Source of the DNA: Candidatus Thorarchaeota archaeon
GTDB lineage: Archaea > Asgardarchaeota > Thorarchaeia > Thorarchaeales > Thorarchaeaceae
Length of the DNA stretch: 8,795 nt
Direction of reading: 5' to 3'
Assembly: GCA_016841005.1 (NCBI GenBank)
Contig: JAEORG010000303.1
Coordinates: 1-8,795, forward strand
Under the pieces are notes generated by a model, which saw only the letters and a program-made list of their open reading frames with translations, was not told where the DNA came from and did not search any database. Below are positions 2,373 to 8,536 of this stretch, piece after piece. The translations under genes and the position numbers were made by a program. Numbering within the stretch: position 1 is the first letter of the stretch; each line of letters opens with the position of its first letter.

Positions 2373-2393
2373 AAATGCATTAATTTTTTAATA
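2373..2393 (+). promoter_or_regulatory. Probable promoter of the C25 protease gene, with a 14-bp motif repeated at 7198
   Basis: AAATGCATTAATTT at 2373-2386 runs into a T/A-rich TATA-like stretch (TTTTTTAATA, 2384-2393). The 14 bases recur exactly at 7198-7211 upstream of the microprotein pair. The end of the motif is 53 bases before the TTG start here and 56 bases before the TTG there. A transcription start near 2415 would leave a short leader containing the GAGGAGG site. Confidence 0.45.
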
Positions 2394-2423
2394 AGCACTA
2401 CTTCACTTCATATTTGATTCGCT

Positions 2424-2430
2424 GAGGAGG
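2424..2430 (+). promoter_or_regulatory. Strong Shine-Dalgarno that fixes a TTG start
   Basis: GAGGAGG lies 8 bases before TTG 2439-2441. It marks that TTG as the start of the protease, directly before the signal-like hydrophobic segment. No ATG lies in a comparable position. Confidence 0.8.
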
Positions 2431-2438
2431 AGTAAGAT

Positions 2439-5201
2439 TTGAAGAAGACTCCAATTTCACTGAAAATTACATCGATTGCAGTGGCATCGATGATTATTAT
2501 TTCATCTGTAGCTACGATTGAAATATATTTCTTAACAAATTCTAAGGGTGATACCAAATCCTGGATTGTAAACAATCCAAGCCAAAGTAGTCCCCTTGTT
2601 GATTATTCAGTTCCTGCAGACCTCGGAGTATGGGTTCCATTTATTTCAGCCGCTGAAGGCACTCCTTCTGAGGTTCATGTCACAAGTTCTAATACATCAG
2701 GAATCACGATTGAGGCTAATTTCCATGGATTTTGGAGGGGAAATGTTTCCATAAACGGTACTCGATTTCATCATCTAGAAATGCCTGGAGCAGGTTCATT
2801 GCAAATTCCAGGTGCACCAGTTCTACCATGTCTGTTCGAGTACATTGAGGTACCTCATAATATTAATATTTCAATTGTTATACTGGGTTCATCATCTAGC
2901 AAATTAAGTGGATATGATATAGAACCATCTGTTTATGAAGACATTCCTTACCCAGTTGCAATTGGCATTGACAGCATAGTACAGACAACACCTCTACCAA
3001 TAAGTTATGGTCCAGAGTACTCGGATAATTCTTTCTTCCCAAATAATCTGACGAGCACAGAAGGAGCATTAGAAAATGAATCAATGATTATGCGGAGACA
3101 CAGGTTGCTAGGACTTAGCTTTTATCCAGTCCTCTACAATCCAACCAACGACACTCTAATGGTGTATTCACAAATCGAAGTAAAAATAAACTACAGCACT
3201 GCAGCATCACTTCAACCAGTCGACGCATGTTTACGCTCAGATGTGTTCGACCGTATCCTGGGTAACACAGTATTGAACTTCTTCTCTATCTATTCGTCTA
3301 TTCCTATTCTAGCATATTCCCCCTTGAATGCAATACCTGCACAAGTATATGATGATGTCCCTGAGTACTTGATTGTAACAACTTCGAGGTTCAAAGCACA
3401 AGCAGATAGATTGGCAGATTGGAAAGATCGGAAAGGTGTTCCTTCGAAGGTTGTCACAGTAAGTGCAGGTGACGCAAATGAAGTTACACAAGTAATTCAT
3501 GATGCATACTTTAATGCATTATCAAACAATAATCCACCTCCATCTTATGGTCTGCTCTTTGGTGATGTTGATGATATTCCAACCAGATATGACACATCGA
3601 TGAGTTCCTGGTATTTCACACTTGGCCAAGGTCCGATTGCATCGGATCTAAGCTATTTCGATGTTCAAGGATCCGGTTACCTCCCAGAGATGGCCTATGG
3701 TAGAATATCAGTTGATACAGTAGAACAGGCAGAAATTGTCGTCGACAAGATACTTCAATATGAAAAAAATCCACCAGATGACACTTCATTCTACAAAGAT
3801 GCGTTTTTTGCTGCGGAATTTCCTGATACGAATCCTCTAGATGGAGAGGAGGACAGTGAATTCAAATTTGTAAGTGTTCTAGAAAGAATTAGGCATTTTC
3901 TGAAAGAGAATGGTTACACAGGCCATATCAATTATTCATCTATGTACATGAATTTTGACTATCCCGGTCACATTAGTGGTTCAAACAAAGATCTAGATGA
4001 TTTGGAACTATTTTGGAGCACACACCCAACCTCAAAATTAGTTTTAGATTCAATCTTCAGAAATGACTATGAAGATTTCTATAAGAACTTCGCATGGTTA
4101 GGTAGATATGACTGGCTTGGAGAGCCTTATGAACCCAATTGGGACAATCCTTTCTATGCAGATGCTATCGACAATGTCACTCGTAGTCTCAACGAGGGTA
4201 GATTCTTGGTCTATTACTTCGGACATGGTGGTTCCGAAAATATGGTTCGACTCGCATTAGGCTACCCGAGGGACTTTGTTGAGGGATGGCAACATCCATA
4301 CCTAGATTTGAATCATCCTCTAGTCAATATAGAAAACGGAGTTGAAACACCTCTAATAATAAGCATGGCATGCAGCACTGGATGGTTTGATGGGGAAACA
4401 GATGAGAGTGTAATGGAGCTTTGGTCAGGTCACGATCTTTTCGAAGATTATGCAACTGAGTGTTTTGCTGAAGACATCACAAGACTCGGTTATGAAACCA
4501 TGGAAATCAATGGCGCAGTTGCAGTGATTGCACCATCTCGTCCTGCTTATGCTCTTGTTGGTGCATACCTAATGGATGGAATAACAGCAGCATTCTGGCC
4601 CGAATTCACTGAGGACGATGGGGACCTCATATATGACAATGGAGGATCAGCACTTTACGAAATAGGACCAGCACTCATTGAAGGAAAGCTATATGCGAAA
4701 CAGAAATGGAGAGAGTGTTATGATAATGCACTAATAGGGTTTAGAGAACTTTGGTATCCTCAACATAAGGCTCCTACAACATTCTACGAATATCATCTCT
4801 TTGGAGACCCTGAAACACAACTCTGGACAGACGTCCCATCAATCTTTGAGGTAATACACCCAGCAAGTTTTTCACTTTCTGATGCTCAACTAGTTCCTAT
4901 AACCGTATTAGATGATGAGTCAGGGTTGCCTGTGGTTGGAGCGAAGGTATGCATTCGACAAATAGTTGATGGGGAGAAAGCTATCTATAAGGTAGGAGAA
5001 ACAGATACAAATGGTCAAGTGAGCTTTGAGATTGATGTGACGTCAGTTTCAAAAATTGATGTCACAGTAACAAAACACAATTATCGCCCGTATATAGGAA
5101 ATATGAATCCATTCGTATACATTGATCCTTTAGTACTGCTCCTCGCAGGAATAGGTATAGTGGTAATAATAATATTGCTCGCAAAGAAAAAGAAAGCCTG
5201 A
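2439..5201 (+). CDS. C25 (gingipain-like) cysteine protease, membrane-anchored at the surface (920 aa)
   Basis: This is a secreted endopeptidase of family C25, clan CD (caspase/gingipain fold). Residues 8-33 are a signal peptide or N-terminal anchor. Residues 75-260 are a beta-rich region in the place of the gingipain propeptide. The catalytic domain spans about 305-800, opening with EYLIVTTSRF. It carries the dyad: H596 in YYFGHGG and C645 in ISMACSTG, each at the end of a hydrophobic strand. FGDPETQLWT (788-797) closes the domain, as in gingipains. Residues 800-885 form an Ig-like or carboxypeptidase-regulatory-like domain (VGETDTNGQVSF). Residues 894-914 are a membrane span, followed by AKKKKA. 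The protein should therefore be tethered to the cell with its catalytic domain outside, probably for digesting environmental protein. Arg versus Lys specificity cannot be read. The TTG start is set by GAGGAGG. A microprotein gene follows 80 bases downstream. Confidence 0.92.
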   Translation: MKKTPISLKITSIAVASMIIISSVATIEIYFLTNSKGDTKSWIVNNPSQSSPLVDYSVPADLGVWVPFISAAEGTPSEVHVTSSNTSGITIEANFHGFWRGNVSINGTRFHHLEMPGAGSLQIPGAPVLPCLFEYIEVPHNINISIVILGSSSSKLSGYDIEPSVYEDIPYPVAIGIDSIVQTTPLPISYGPEYSDNSFFPNNLTSTEGALENESMIMRRHRLLGLSFYPVLYNPTNDTLMVYSQIEVKINYSTAASLQPVDACLRSDVFDRILGNTVLNFFSIYSSIPILAYSPLNAIPAQVYDDVPEYLIVTTSRFKAQADRLADWKDRKGVPSKVVTVSAGDANEVTQVIHDAYFNALSNNNPPPSYGLLFGDVDDIPTRYDTSMSSWYFTLGQGPIASDLSYFDVQGSGYLPEMAYGRISVDTVEQAEIVVDKILQYEKNPPDDTSFYKDAFFAAEFPDTNPLDGEEDSEFKFVSVLERIRHFLKENGYTGHINYSSMYMNFDYPGHISGSNKDLDDLELFWSTHPTSKLVLDSIFRNDYEDFYKNFAWLGRYDWLGEPYEPNWDNPFYADAIDNVTRSLNEGRFLVYYFGHGGSENMVRLALGYPRDFVEGWQHPYLDLNHPLVNIENGVETPLIISMACSTGWFDGETDESVMELWSGHDLFEDYATECFAEDITRLGYETMEINGAVAVIAPSRPAYALVGAYLMDGITAAFWPEFTEDDGDLIYDNGGSALYEIGPALIEGKLYAKQKWRECYDNALIGFRELWYPQHKAPTTFYEYHLFGDPETQLWTDVPSIFEVIHPASFSLSDAQLVPITVLDDESGLPVVGAKVCIRQIVDGEKAIYKVGETDTNGQVSFEIDVTSVSKIDVTVTKHNYRPYIGNMNPFVYIDPLVLLLAGIGIVVIIILLAKKKKA

Positions 5202-5221: not shown

Positions 5222-5228
5222 TTTTTAA
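5222..5228 (+). promoter_or_regulatory. TATA-like box of the 38-aa microprotein gene
   Basis: TTTTTAA lies 21 bases after the protease stop codon. A transcription start about 25 bases on (near 5250) would leave a leader of about 30 bases containing the ribosome binding site GGAGG at 5267-5271. The small gene may thus be transcribed independently of the protease, although read-through is also possible. Confidence 0.4.
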
Positions 5229-5281
5229 GTAACCTCAACTCTGCTTTATGACTAATCGCGTTCAAAGGAGGAAAAAAGGCG

Positions 5282-5398
5282 ATGGAAGTTCCCAGTTGGT
5301 TATTCTGGCTATTAGTTATCTTAGTAATCTTCTTGTTCATCGAAGCTTTGCATATTGTTGACATCATCCCGAATGTTGGAATTGGATGGCCTAACTAA
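5282..5398 (+). CDS. Single-span membrane microprotein A (38 aa)
   Basis: ATG 5282 is preceded by GGAGG (5267-5271) at a spacing of 10 and ends at TAA 5396-5398. The peptide starts MEVPSW and continues as a hydrophobic span at about residues 7-20 (WLFWLLVILVIFLF), then Glu21-Ala22, an amphipathic stretch HIVDIIP with Pro30, and a tail ending GWPN. It aligns without a gap to the microproteins at 7267 and 7411: E21, A22 and P30 coincide in all three. LVIF and the terminal GWP also match the one at 7267. I know no family with this pattern and infer a small inner-membrane subunit or regulator. The three-way conservation and ribosome binding sites are the evidence that it is translated. It lies 80 bases after the C25 protease gene. 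Confidence 0.72.
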   Translation: MEVPSWLFWLLVILVIFLFIEALHIVDIIPNVGIGWPN

Positions 5399-5616
5399 CT
5401 AGTTCAGACCATCAAATAGATGGAATGCAGAAGAAGACTGCAAACATAACTAGTCGAATTTGAGAATGGGTAAATCATGCGAGATGTCAATATACTTGCC
5501 AATCAAATATACTTCATTCAAGTAGCTCTGTAGATCATTGGCATTATTGGGAGCTGGACTTCAATTAGCCTTGTCATAGTGTGCGATATGAGTCCACATT
5601 TTGATAAATAAGATGA

Positions 5617-7086
5617 CTAAAGCCTATTCTGCAAATCAGCAAAAAAAGGTCTCAAATAATTCAGATTATTTTCATCAATGAGCGATTGGAGCTGTGGAAG
5701 AATCTCTCTGAGGAGAATATCATCATTGTTCAGCATTGCCATTTCTGCTTTGAGCAATAGAACTTGTCCAAGTATTCCAGGTAGTTCTTCAGATATTGCT
5801 CTTTCTTCTAAGATTGCAAGTGATGGAGAAACTACATTACTTTGTGGAGAAGACATAATCTCAATTGCAGCCAGATGACGTAAGAATATGTTCTCCATGA
5901 GCAAGGCAGTTCCCTGATGTTCATAGATTTCTAGTCCCTGTTCAATACTGCTAAGAGCTAATGAATAGTCGCCTTGTTCCATTTCCAAAAGACCTGAAAC
6001 AAAATGAAGCCATGCCATTTGATCTTCATTTCCACCTTTTACAATCTCTTCTCGAATGGAATCAAGGATAGACTGAGCCTCTATCAATCGTTTTAACGAG
6101 ATCAATGCCCAAATTTGAAATAATCGAGCATGATTCAGTAAATATGGTCTACCACTAAACTGATCTTCTGCCATTTGACCCCATTCCAGTCCCGATTCAG
6201 AGTCGCCTATTGCATTATAATAAATCGAAAGGAAAGAAGAAGGATTTCCGTATTCAAAACCTGCTCTTTCAAGGACATTGACCGATTTCAAACATAGTTC
6301 AATTGCCCTATCGAAATCACCCTTTATTGCATCCAAAAAGCTCAGGTTATAGATAACATTAGCATAATTTGCAGGAATTCCTAAACTGGATTCAATTATT
6401 TGATACGCTTCTTCTAAGGCCAAGCGAGCTTGCGCTCTATCAAAGTTCACCGACCTACCTCCTTTTCGCATTAGGAGATGTGCTTTCCGCAACCTATCGT
6501 CAAATTCCTCAGCAATTTGTATTCCTCGTTCAATAAGACGAAACTGTTCCTCTGTGTCTCCGTCTATTTGCGCACGAATCGATAAGAAATCGCATAGAAC
6601 GATTTCATAGAATCCAAACTTTGGATTGCTCTGTATGAGTTCTTCTATTCTCTCCATGGTGGCTGATTCATACATTATTTTAGGGTAATTTCTAATATCA
6701 ACCTCAAACTTAATCAAATTCATTTCAAGAATTAACCAATCATCAGGATCTGTAGCAATGACAGCATCAGCTAGTTCATGGACCTTCTGCTCATCCTCGT
6801 AAACTCCTTGGTACACTGAAGAATAGAAAAGGTTTGGCCGAAGAATCTGATGATGCCCATATTTTTCTCTAATCTTGTCGACATATTTGTAATCCATCGC
6901 AAGCATAGAAAAATGAATAGCAAAGTACACAACCATTACTGGGTTTTCACTACTCAGAATACCTTCACATAATCTATGAACAAAGTCATAGTAGTCCGTT
7001 GCCTCATTCATTGTGGATTCAAGAATATTGCGGGTTTGGTCATCAATGAAAGAGAAGTACTGAGTAATCGTACCAATTGGTTCCAT
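5617..7086 (-). CDS. TPR-type helical-repeat protein (489 aa), cytoplasmic
   Basis: The protein is alpha-helical throughout, with no signal peptide or membrane span. Tetratricopeptide-like units are recognisable at about 240-275 (ANVIYNLSFLDAIKGDFDRA type, small residues at the helix-packing positions), 316-348, and 355-390 (FVSGLLEMEQGDYSLALSSI, a near-canonical TPR). Degenerate units cover 100-235 and 440-475. The arrangement resembles the TPR superhelices of MalT-like and related regulators. No DNA-binding or enzymatic domain is attached, so it is probably a protein-protein scaffold. ATG 7086 is supported by GGAGGTG (7098-7092) upstream. Its promoter probably lies at 7163-7172, and it diverges from the microprotein pair. 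The partner it binds is unknown. Confidence 0.82.
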   Translation of the reverse strand: MEPIGTITQYFSFIDDQTRNILESTMNEATDYYDFVHRLCEGILSSENPVMVVYFAIHFSMLAMDYKYVDKIREKYGHHQILRPNLFYSSVYQGVYEDEQKVHELADAVIATDPDDWLILEMNLIKFEVDIRNYPKIMYESATMERIEELIQSNPKFGFYEIVLCDFLSIRAQIDGDTEEQFRLIERGIQIAEEFDDRLRKAHLLMRKGGRSVNFDRAQARLALEEAYQIIESSLGIPANYANVIYNLSFLDAIKGDFDRAIELCLKSVNVLERAGFEYGNPSSFLSIYYNAIGDSESGLEWGQMAEDQFSGRPYLLNHARLFQIWALISLKRLIEAQSILDSIREEIVKGGNEDQMAWLHFVSGLLEMEQGDYSLALSSIEQGLEIYEHQGTALLMENIFLRHLAAIEIMSSPQSNVVSPSLAILEERAISEELPGILGQVLLLKAEMAMLNNDDILLREILPQLQSLIDENNLNYLRPFFADLQNRL

Positions 7087-7133
7087 CCAAGCACCTCCAA
7101 ATTCAATGTATCATAAGATGATGTTCTTAATCG

Positions 7134-7147
7134 AGAAAAATTTTTCT
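7134..7147. repeat. 14-bp perfect palindrome in the divergent promoter region
   Basis: AGAAAAATTTTTCT is its own reverse complement. It lies between the putative minus-strand TATA box (7163-7172) and the start of the TPR gene, close to the predicted transcription start near 7142. It may be an operator for a dimeric regulator. AT-rich palindromes also arise by chance, so this is tentative. Confidence 0.4.
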
Positions 7148-7162
7148 AAAGTCAATCATCTA

Positions 7163-7172
7163 TTTTATAAAA
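7163..7172 (-). promoter_or_regulatory. TATA-like box of the 489-aa TPR gene
   Basis: TTTTATAAAA is the best TATA candidate upstream of the minus-strand TPR gene. The usual spacing puts transcription start near 7142 and a leader of about 55 bases before ATG 7086. The element is symmetrical and might also be read rightwards, though the microprotein pair has a better-placed box at 7209. Confidence 0.4.
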
Positions 7173-7197
7173 CTTGGTCAAGAAAGATTATGAAATT

Positions 7198-7216
7198 AAA
7201 TGCATTAATTTAAATA
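7198..7216 (+). promoter_or_regulatory. Probable promoter of the microprotein B-C pair, carrying the 14-bp shared motif
   Basis: AAATGCATTAATTT (7198-7211) matches 2373-2386 exactly and overlaps the TATA-like TTTAAATA at 7209-7216. A start of transcription near 7238 leaves a leader of about 29 bases containing AGGAGG (7251-7256). Confidence 0.45.
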
Positions 7217-7266
7217 TCATTTCACAAATCTTCTACGACCGAAATGAATTAGGAGGAATTTGAATA

Positions 7267-7380
7267 TTGGATAGGAAAAATATAGTTATCATTATTCTTC
7301 TTATTCTTGTAATATTCTTCGCACTGGAAGCTTTTGGCATTATAGATTTCTTCCCATATGATGAAGGATGGCCATCATGA
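7267..7380 (+). CDS. Single-span membrane microprotein B (37 aa)
   Basis: The TTG start at 7267 is set by AGGAGG at 7251-7256 (10-base spacing); an earlier TTG at 7260 meets a stop after four codons. The peptide has a positive N terminus (MDRKN), a hydrophobic span at about 6-20, Glu21-Ala22, a second hydrophobic patch FGIIDFFP with Pro30, and a tail ending GWPS. The charge pattern predicts N terminus inside and C terminus outside. It matches microprotein A in the LLILVIF core, EA, the xIxDxxP spacing and the GWP tail. It matches microprotein C in EAF and Pro30. The next gene starts 30 bases after its stop, so the two probably share one mRNA. Function unknown. Confidence 0.72.
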   Translation: MDRKNIVIIILLILVIFFALEAFGIIDFFPYDEGWPS

Positions 7381-7410
7381 GTAAATATGCTGCGAACGGA
7401 GGAAAAGTAA

Positions 7411-7509
7411 ATGGACGGGCGTGATGTACTGATCATTGTTCTCATTATTCTCTTGGTGTGCTTCATCTTAGAGGCATTTGATGCTATCAATTTGTTGCCG
7501 CGAATCTAG
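7411..7509 (+). CDS. Single-span membrane microprotein C (32 aa)
   Basis: ATG 7411 follows GGAGG (7398-7402) at 8 bases and ends at TAG 7507-7509. The peptide begins MDGRD, then has a hydrophobic span at about residues 6-20 with one Cys (C17), then Glu21-Ala22-Phe23, then INLLP with Pro30, and stops two residues later. It therefore lacks the GWP tail of A and B. Residue spacing of E21, A22 and P30 is identical to both. It is the second gene of a pair with microprotein B and converges on the Lrp-like regulator gene 43 bases away. Probable paralogue of B by local duplication; function unknown. Confidence 0.7.
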   Translation: MDGRDVLIIVLIILLVCFILEAFDAINLLPRI

Positions 7510-7552: not shown

Positions 7553-8536
7553 TTACAAATCAACTTCTGTAATCCCTACCTCAGTAATCATCTCTCTTAT
7601 CTTGATAGTACCAAGTCGTGGAAATTTTCGTACAGGATATGAAAGCAATACATCCACAGATCGACAGAATTCTTCCTTCTGCACCGTCTGAGCAATCAGT
7701 TGGGCATCTCGAAAGTGGTCTGTAACAAACTTTGCGAAGACAACAGGTTCCATCGCAGAACAGAAACAGAACCAGTATTCATTTGGGTAGGTCTTTCGAA
7801 ACCATTCATCAATAGACTCTCTAGTCGATATCCGCTCATTGTAGTTGATCTTCAAATAGAATTCATGATTATCTCCTAGACTAAGGTTCCATCTCATCGA
7901 AAACCAGAAGGCACCACTCTCTTGCATCTCTTGAATTGCTCTTCCTGCGCGCCTTGCTGTGATACCAAGACGACCAGCAATCTGACTTACGCTCATTCGT
8001 GCATCACTCAAGAGTAAGTTCAAGACTTGTAGGTGAAGACGCTTGATGTTGAATGTTTTTCCACGTGCCATCAATATAGTATGAAGTTCGATATCAGAGA
8101 CCGAGTCTAATTGTCGAAAGAATGACCCAATCTCCTTCAGACCCTGAGTACCAAGATACTCACAATGCACAAAATATAGACGGTTTGATCCTGCTACTAC
8201 CTCTCCGACCTGAACAATATTGAGGTTCGTACTAAGATAGTCAATAAAATCAACATAATCCTCTGTTCCATCAGTCTTAACAAGCGCAACTAGATATTCC
8301 GATCCAACCATTTCTGGTCGCAAGAGCACTACGAATTCTTCTATCACTCCCTCTTCAATAAGGCGATCCATTCTCTTTCTAATAGCATTTGCAGTGACAC
8401 CTACAGTGTCAGCTATCGACTGATAGGATAGCCTGCAATCACTATCTAGTGCGATGAGAATAGCCTTGTCCAGAGAGTCCAATTTATTCACCTTGGAGAC
8501 AATACAGTTGGTAAAGCACTCTAAATAAATTGTCAT
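7553..8536 (-). CDS. Lrp/AsnC-like transcription regulator with two tandem HTH units (327 aa)
   Basis: The first winged HTH of Lrp/AsnC type is at residues 18-65 (KLDSLDKAIL, then SIADTVGVTANAIRKRMDRL, then EEGVI), followed by a ferredoxin-like ligand-binding (RAM-type) segment at about 66-155. A second HTH is at 167-208 (QIAGRLGITARRAGRAIQEM), followed by a second, diverged RAM-like segment at about 211-300. A typical Lrp protein has one HTH and about 150 residues, so this is a tandem duplication or fusion. It could act as an internal pseudo-dimer on DNA. The start is uncertain. ATG 8536 has no clear Shine-Dalgarno site, and a GTG at codon 16 (8491) lies just before the usual LDxLDxxIL opening. 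A possible TATA (8531-8522 on the minus strand) would favour the GTG. The divergent TPR gene is a plausible target. Confidence 0.85.
   Translation of the reverse strand: MTIYLECFTNCIVSKVNKLDSLDKAILIALDSDCRLSYQSIADTVGVTANAIRKRMDRLIEEGVIEEFVVLLRPEMVGSEYLVALVKTDGTEDYVDFIDYLSTNLNIVQVGEVVAGSNRLYFVHCEYLGTQGLKEIGSFFRQLDSVSDIELHTILMARGKTFNIKRLHLQVLNLLLSDARMSVSQIAGRLGITARRAGRAIQEMQESGAFWFSMRWNLSLGDNHEFYLKINYNERISTRESIDEWFRKTYPNEYWFCFCSAMEPVVFAKFVTDHFRDAQLIAQTVQKEEFCRSVDVLLSYPVRKFPRLGTIKIREMITEVGITEVDL

Follow-up and report, generated by a model that had tools for sequence, protein, structure and literature searches.

The window analysed here, that is, the whole 8,795-nucleotide stretch of Candidatus Thorarchaeota DNA, contains the genes of a C25 cysteine protease, a TPR protein and an Lrp/AsnC-type regulator, together with three short ORFs. 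One of these, ORF 5282, occupies a slot directly after the membrane-anchored C25 gene and is convergent with the 489-aa TPR gene. The features of the locus are as follows.

2439..5201, + strand: C25 (gingipain-type) cysteine protease, 920 aa (PF01364, E = 3.8e-47; PF08126, E = 1.4e-16)
5222..5271, + strand: leader of microprotein 1, with the TATA-like TTTTTAAG at 5222-5229, a TCGCG element at 5256-5260 and the Shine-Dalgarno sequence AAGGAGG at 5265-5271
5282..5398, + strand: microprotein 1, 38 aa; the slot copy, after the C25 gene and convergent with the TPR gene
5617..7086, - strand: TPR protein, 489 aa (PF13424, E = 2.8e-8); predicted all-helical superhelix
7209..7256, + strand: leader of microprotein 2, with the TATA-like TTTAAAT and the Shine-Dalgarno sequence AGGAGG
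7267..7380, + strand: microprotein 2, 37 aa, TTG start; extra copy beyond the TPR gene
7411..7509, + strand: microprotein 3, 32 aa, without the tail; starts 30 bases past microprotein 2
7553..8536, - strand: Lrp/AsnC-type regulator (PF13412, E = 1.6e-20; PF13404, E = 3.5e-16), upstream of the TPR gene

The positions and lengths (38, 37 and 32 aa) assigned to the three ORFs in a preliminary description of this DNA were confirmed. The perfect or near-perfect ribosome-binding sites that it had placed 8-10 bases upstream can be read in the sequence; the GGAGG-type sites of ORFs 5282, 7267 and 7411 lie 10, 10 and 8 bases from the respective starts, as measured by hand from the site's end. The three window peptides align without gaps up to Pro30 and have Met1, Leu11, Ile13, Leu14, Glu21, Ala22 and Pro30 in common, which bears out the earlier placing of E21, A22 and P30 in one register. 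AlphaFold predicts that residues 3-25 of the microprotein form a helix, with good confidence as far as residue 20 or so, and models the tail with low confidence; the helix supports the single hydrophobic span proposed before. ORFs 7267 and 7411 are located toward the Lrp gene, on the opposite side of the TPR gene from ORF 5282, and are extra copies outside the slot; their 30-base spacing suggests that they possibly share one transcript. The database protein P0128 resembles microprotein 2.

Because the match among the peptides is mainly hydrophobic, the ORFs could be taken for chance frames that resemble each other through composition. This explanation is refuted by profile and shuffle tests and by the conserved position and leader described below, and we consider it scarcely credible. 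A profile of 17 sequences from outside the window, part of which were collected with window-seeded searches so that the profile is not fully independent (although the relatives in L001, L003, L005 and L011 came to light in the plain scan described below), recovered all three window ORFs from 8180 six-frame ORFs of the relatives' loci and the window, with E = 1.2e-11 (42.9 bits) for ORF 7267, 9.7e-8 (30.3 bits) for ORF 7411 and 6.8e-7 (27.6 bits) for the remaining one. The top ORF outside the family reached 11.4 bits, 16 bits below the lowest window ORF. With the same non-window profile, the real scores were reached by none of 3000 whole-peptide shuffles (11 unscored) and by none of 3000 shuffles confined within the span and the tail; the 0 of 6000 upholds the earlier view that the match exceeds chance. 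Across 700 comparisons, differences occur at codon positions 1, 2 and 3 in 55, 15 and 65% of cases, respectively. The check for purifying selection proposed earlier gave pN/pS below 1 in 28 of 28 pairs (0.33-0.64), a result that is weak on its own because T is the common second base of hydrophobic codons and synonymous sites are almost saturated with changes. Judged by their sequences, ORFs 5282, 7267 and 7411 are real coding genes and constitute one family of single-span microproteins.

Homologous short ORFs, on whose presence in related genomes the preliminary description had let the family stand or fall, were looked for and found. A plain scan for short hydrophobic ORFs with a Shine-Dalgarno sequence, covering 13 loci of the named genome collection brought in by TPR alignment, gave clear relatives in L001, L003, L005 and L011. 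Whole-genome searching identified the family in five of the 47 genomes of the class at E < 1e-8 (G001, G002, G003, G005 and G011); a sixth, G030, is truncated, with the leader and first nine codons (MEIPSWLFW; MEVPSWLFW in the window) preceding the contig end. A search of the phylum matched 23 of 227 genomes at E <= 0.05, comprising the same five genomes as clear matches and 18 at E = 0.006-0.05. Weak places in G033, G011, G045 and G001 were rejected base by base, as they lack the Glu...Pro part or lie in unrelated frames, and the weak phylum matches beyond these four places were judged from the table alone. One frame in G033 (L030:187-315), which starts with MERR and continues hydrophobic without the Glu...Pro part, had E = 2.3e-5 with a window-only profile but 10.8 bits with the wider profile. 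Within the genomes searched, the family has so far been found in one Thorarchaeota subclade only.

Two protein database searches returned 14 and 18 matches, amounting to 19 different proteins that are unnamed or labelled 'hypothetical protein'; P0123 and P0129 are identical to proteins of L003 and L011. Five of the first 14 matches appear, as inferred from the tables, to share a contig with a TPR match (P0121/P0089, P0125/P0030, P0130/P0063, P0131/P0070 and P0133/P0076), and the tags of P0131 and P0070 adjoin (ACTSSE_00460 and _00465). Members are mostly 37-54 aa long, with the third window copy at 32 aa; P0135 and P0136, listed at 76 and 63 aa, both carry extra N-terminal residues. A second subgroup begins with MPRLEG (P0134 and P0137-P0139), a sequence that is also internal to P0135.

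In a 20-member alignment the Glu never varies, and the Asp and Pro hardly do. The Glu+3 position is Gly in 15 of 20 members (hand count), and the family signature, as read from the alignment, is a hydrophobic span, Glu and then usually Gly-x-x-Asp-x-x-Pro. Two features that had been put forward as family marks did not hold: Ala directly follows Glu in just six of the 20 aligned members (hand count), and the Gly-Trp-Pro tail is restricted to the window pair among the members compared. A strict search, in which E[AST]-x7-P had to follow a hydrophobic stretch, retrieved the window ORFs only, as the family varies after Glu. With the three-peptide alignment, 227 stretches of viral contigs fit a pattern and none was confirmed. 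An invariant Glu in a hydrophobic setting, in all 20 aligned members, would suit a structural subunit of some other membrane complex, in which Glu is a helix-pairing or ion-binding site and the neighbouring genes are linked by history. P0136, a later match outside the alignment, has Asp in place of Glu. The tight position beside one C25 gene, the limitation to one subclade and the sharing of the slot with other proteins make such a role quite unlikely.

Comparison of the 20 members with Pfam gave a best E of 0.036, below the curated cut-off; P0125 and P0134 matched 0 NCBIfam families, and the microprotein profile found nothing significant among PDB sequences. The earlier statement that no known family has this pattern thus stands for Pfam, NCBIfam and PDB, and by these sequence comparisons the microprotein family is previously undescribed. 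No paper title on the family or the locus occurred among the literature matches listed; Thorarchaeota with peptidase C25 gave no literature match, and with gingipain a title on other archaea only. The microproteins are like bacterial single-span small membrane proteins such as YohP in size and layout (PMC7549839, as far as this source presents them). Unlike YohP-type proteins, they occupy a fixed genomic slot, and no common sequence family was found.

The preliminary description had noted that the trio sits beside a protease and a TPR gene. Both neighbours were confirmed, but they are not incidental, a point that it had missed. Gene maps show the same order, a TPR gene with the microprotein and C25 genes on the opposite strand, in L001, L003, L005 and L011, and by coordinates the homologues lie downstream of the TPR gene and convergent with it. 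In the window, these four loci and L032 (G002, a short contig on which the microprotein follows the C25 gene), the microprotein is the next same-strand gene after C25, at a distance of 80-154 nt. The leader and nine codons of G030 likewise follow a C25 gene, and in both G002 and G030 the C25 gene and microprotein lie at a contig end. Nine genomes (G001, G003, G004, G005, G006, G007, G008, G011 and G035) have a TPR and a C25 gene, or pieces of these, oriented toward each other on a single contig, and in nine of nine a small ORF lies between them. The C25 profile gave 48 match rows in 26 of the 47 genomes, and 20 further regions were examined. Five of these are slot loci (G006, G007, G008, G030 and G035), three have no stop before the contig end, and the 12 off-slot C25 genes with a readable end have no family member in the next 900 nt (for one gene, the next 369 nt). 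Scanning the examined C25 regions with the profile found nothing below E = 0.5. In the complete chromosome of G009, the first 240 TPR residues adjoin the start of a C25 gene encoded on the opposite strand; the slot is absent, most simply through deletion. A related TPR gene also occurs in G010 and G017, which have neither a C25 match nor a microprotein. Since the usual place of the family is after C25 and convergent with TPR, the locus is the unit to be explained.

Between the C25 gene and the microprotein, the slot has a leader composed of a TATA-like block, the TCGCG element and a Shine-Dalgarno sequence. This block is alike in L001, L003, L005, L011, L018, L004, L093/L123 and L122, more loosely in L005 and L011, and is conserved in nine of 12 slots; in L006, L007 and L008 it is unrecognizable beyond a TATA-like stretch and a Shine-Dalgarno sequence. 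BLAST of the 81-base leader over the 47 genomes gave matches in 15, all at E = 0.02 or weaker and two of them (G004 and G005) slots; because these matches are weak and mostly off-slot, the leader claim rests on the comparison of slot positions. A similar TTCGC-SD leader is also present in front of the C25 gene, and leadered genes of the group may have it in general. Conservation of the chromosomal position and leader across genomes bears on whether the product is a small membrane-active peptide, for example a type I toxin or a bacteriocin-like product. Short, single-span and present in three copies, the window ORFs would fit such a peptide, and their hydrophobic span followed by Leu-Glu is what we take to be a loose likeness to Fst. 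The conserved position and leader, however, render this very unlikely. Rfam also matched nothing in the window, which is a weak argument, as undescribed antisense RNAs escape Rfam. A tRNA scan of the window was empty as well.

Counting the window, 12 slots hold eight membrane products (one two-span, one cut) and four soluble ones. In L004 (G004) the product behind the same leader is a protein of 70 aa with two spans (by eye); it ends in ITDLIPGTGKGGW, and its basic N-terminus would put its tail inside. The contig-cut gene before this slot matches the end of C25 proteins (best E = 4e-59), while the C25 Pfam domain was not matched in the G004 genome. In G035 the leader precedes the gene of a soluble protein of 143 aa, which is flanked by C25 and part of a TPR gene. 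The slots of L006, L007 and L008 encode soluble proteins of 159, 139 and 136 aa, which have mainly a GPWP end in common, show no Pfam match and have relatives in these three of the 47 genomes only; the TPR proteins of these loci are 41, 43 and 41% identical to that of the window. None of the four soluble occupants has an export signal by eye, and they would remain intracellular. Gly/Pro-rich ends are seen by eye in both the microproteins and the soluble slot proteins. Homology between the microprotein and soluble tails is not established, as 35, 62, 221 and 538 of 1000 shuffles matched the summed local scores for L007, L008, L006 and G035, respectively. Profile comparisons linked the soluble occupants neither to the microproteins nor to the C25 propeptide, and a search for signs that the microprotein derives from the end anchor of C25 gave no match.

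The C25 protein comprises an N-terminal signal-like span (by eye), a propeptide, the catalytic domain and a C-terminal hydrophobic span with a KKKK tail (by eye). Pfam places the C25 domain and propeptide in the window and in L001, L003, L005 and L011, and the catalytic His and Cys contexts (GHGG and ACST in the window) occur in all five. The C25 fold is caspase-type. As in gingipain and PorU, the window protease has a C25 domain and a propeptide, and it gives weak PorU-type NCBIfam matches (46.5 of 420 bits, far under the cut-off); unlike them, it is an archaeal protein with a C-terminal hydrophobic anchor.

TPR proteins are repeat proteins, many of which bind peptides. The window's TPR protein has 142 relatives, the closest named of which belong to Candidatus Thorarchaeota and Promethearchaeota records. 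Its AlphaFold model is a superhelix with a mean pLDDT of 94.2. Foldseek matched this model to IFT-A, TSK, SPINDLY, OGT and LGN, with NprR at rank 11, and VIA-align gave near ties for LGN (23.1), Rap (23.0) and MalT (22.8), with 24 of 50 rows being Rap, AimR or NprR by title. The predicted fold therefore matches LGN and Rap/AimR/NprR about equally, and the fold shows no function. An N-terminal HTH is absent, as Pfam gives TPR-type matches and RPN7 only; a PDB sequence search with the TPR profile returned designed TPR proteins, and mean conservation per helix revealed no single groove that stands out. Lrp look-alikes (by eye) are found upstream of TPR in five of the 11 loci L001-L011, directly in L001, L004 and L011 and with one gene between in L003 and L007.

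These neighbours invite comparison with the RRNPPA systems (Rap-Phr, Rgg-SHP, NprR and AimR), which the sources cited place in Gram-positive bacteria and mobile elements and whose SHP pathway includes a membrane protease, Eep (PMC9765709; PMC12700828; PMC7564271). Here, too, a short hydrophobic peptide gene lies near the gene of a TPR protein, one whose predicted fold resembles theirs about as well as it does LGN. Unlike the RRNPPA systems, the host is an archaeon, the TPR protein is without an HTH, the Lrp-type gene is separate and C25 stands instead of Eep. Rap is itself described as being without an N-terminal HTH, so the absence of this domain is not decisive (PMC9765709). The microprotein might accordingly be a membrane-inserted pheromone precursor, the tail of which C25 would cut outside; after uptake it would be bound by the cytosolic TPR protein, acting with Lrp. 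Such signalling would have the same topology as the partner model given below and would explain the TPR and Lrp neighbours better. It requires steps of cutting, import and binding that are all putative, and the soluble and two-span occupants argue against it if an outside tail is needed everywhere; on balance we regard it as unlikely. More doubtful still is the wider proposal of an archaeal peptide-signalling locus with one fixed slot for varying small precursors, the majority behind the conserved leader, which C25 would cut outside and a Rap/AimR-like TPR protein would read inside together with Lrp.

Our preferred explanation, to which we tentatively assign a probability of about 0.4, is that the microprotein, anchored in the membrane, serves the C25 protease as a partner or regulator. 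The part from Glu onward has a greater net acidic charge than the N side in eight of nine members, and the two sides are tied in window ORF 7411. Membrane spans are oriented by charge according to the positive-inside rule, and the acidic tail would therefore lie outside, with the C25 catalytic domain. This topology and the position behind C25 are together the reason why we favour a dedicated C25 partner over the other explanations. The single span would cross the cytoplasmic membrane, leaving the short N-terminus in the cytoplasm and exposing the acidic tail, with its Pro and Gly residues, on the outer side. The catalytic domain of C25 would lie on that side too, and the protease's own C-terminal helix would anchor it in the same membrane. 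Glu and Gly-x-x-Asp-x-x-Pro at the outer face might dock on the C25 stalk or active-site region and so set its assembly, activation or restraint. The TPR protein and Lrp regulator may couple protease output to a cell response, and the extra window copies could be dose or specificity variants.

Staphostatins and Spi are small partners encoded beside secreted cysteine proteases (PMC3462683). They are presented there as inhibitors of papain-fold proteases that are co-transcribed with them, and mutual sequence kinship is, as far as this source describes such partners, not required (PMC3462683). The present locus is similar in that a small gene lies beside the gene of a secreted, propeptide-bearing cysteine protease, directly after C25 in the window and five further loci. 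It differs in that the protease is C25, the putative partner is in most cases a membrane-spanning protein whose gene carries a separate leader, and an inhibitor role is putative. In favour of the C25 partner are the slot, the C25 match in all six microprotein genomes, the tail charge, pN/pS, the leader and the staphostatin/Spi gene logic. Against it are the soluble occupants in four genomes and the L004 two-span protein with its tail inside, which speak against any model requiring the tail outside in every case. The slot also has its own leader and so does not require co-transcription with the protease, unlike staphostatins. Six C25 end anchors have, by eye, no conserved basic span residue to pair with Glu, and the negative profile comparisons of the soluble occupants with the microproteins and with the C25 propeptide are further points against the C25 partner.

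If the signalling locus were real, it would be an Asgard counterpart of Gram-positive peptide quorum sensing, and RRNPP-like peptide communication would extend outside Gram-positive bacteria; no title on an RRNPP-like system in archaea is among the literature matches listed, which is not proof of absence. Asgard archaea are relatives of eukaryotes. Three short ORFs that had been overlooked are now defined as a protein family that has a customary place in genomes of this group, and the exchange of one small product for another in the slot between the protease and the TPR protein opens their function to direct tests.

In G006, G033, G005 and other genomes, TPR genes of this family yield as many as 12 matches each with E-values of 1e-20 or better, some of them arranged in tandem rows. 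A short frame in the related locus L005 (1037-1189) looks like the beginning of a TPR paralogue and is apparently decayed. The link between TPR and C25 (gingipain-type) protease genes recurs, since in L013 (1112-4589) a distant TPR paralogue (25% identity) and a further C25 gene lie side by side in the same orientation. In a complete Thorarchaeota chromosome (CP070658; L009, 9998-10864), TPR residues 1-240 adjoin the start of a C25 gene on the opposite strand; the slot that directly follows the C25 gene in the window is absent, as are the remainder of the TPR and C25 genes.

Two further features of the window are:

855-2345: a 168-aa protein and a metallo-beta-lactamase, before the C25 gene
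8629-8793: start of a further frame, divergent from the Lrp/AsnC-type regulator gene and interrupted by the window end

Look-alikes of the former pair were recognized by eye near C25 in the related loci L001 (8037-8462) and L007 (16686-17543), and synteny may therefore extend further. A TTCGC(G) element directly 5′ of the Shine-Dalgarno sequence also precedes surface-protein genes (window 2385-2436; L006 near 7406) and may be a leader or initiator element shared within this group.
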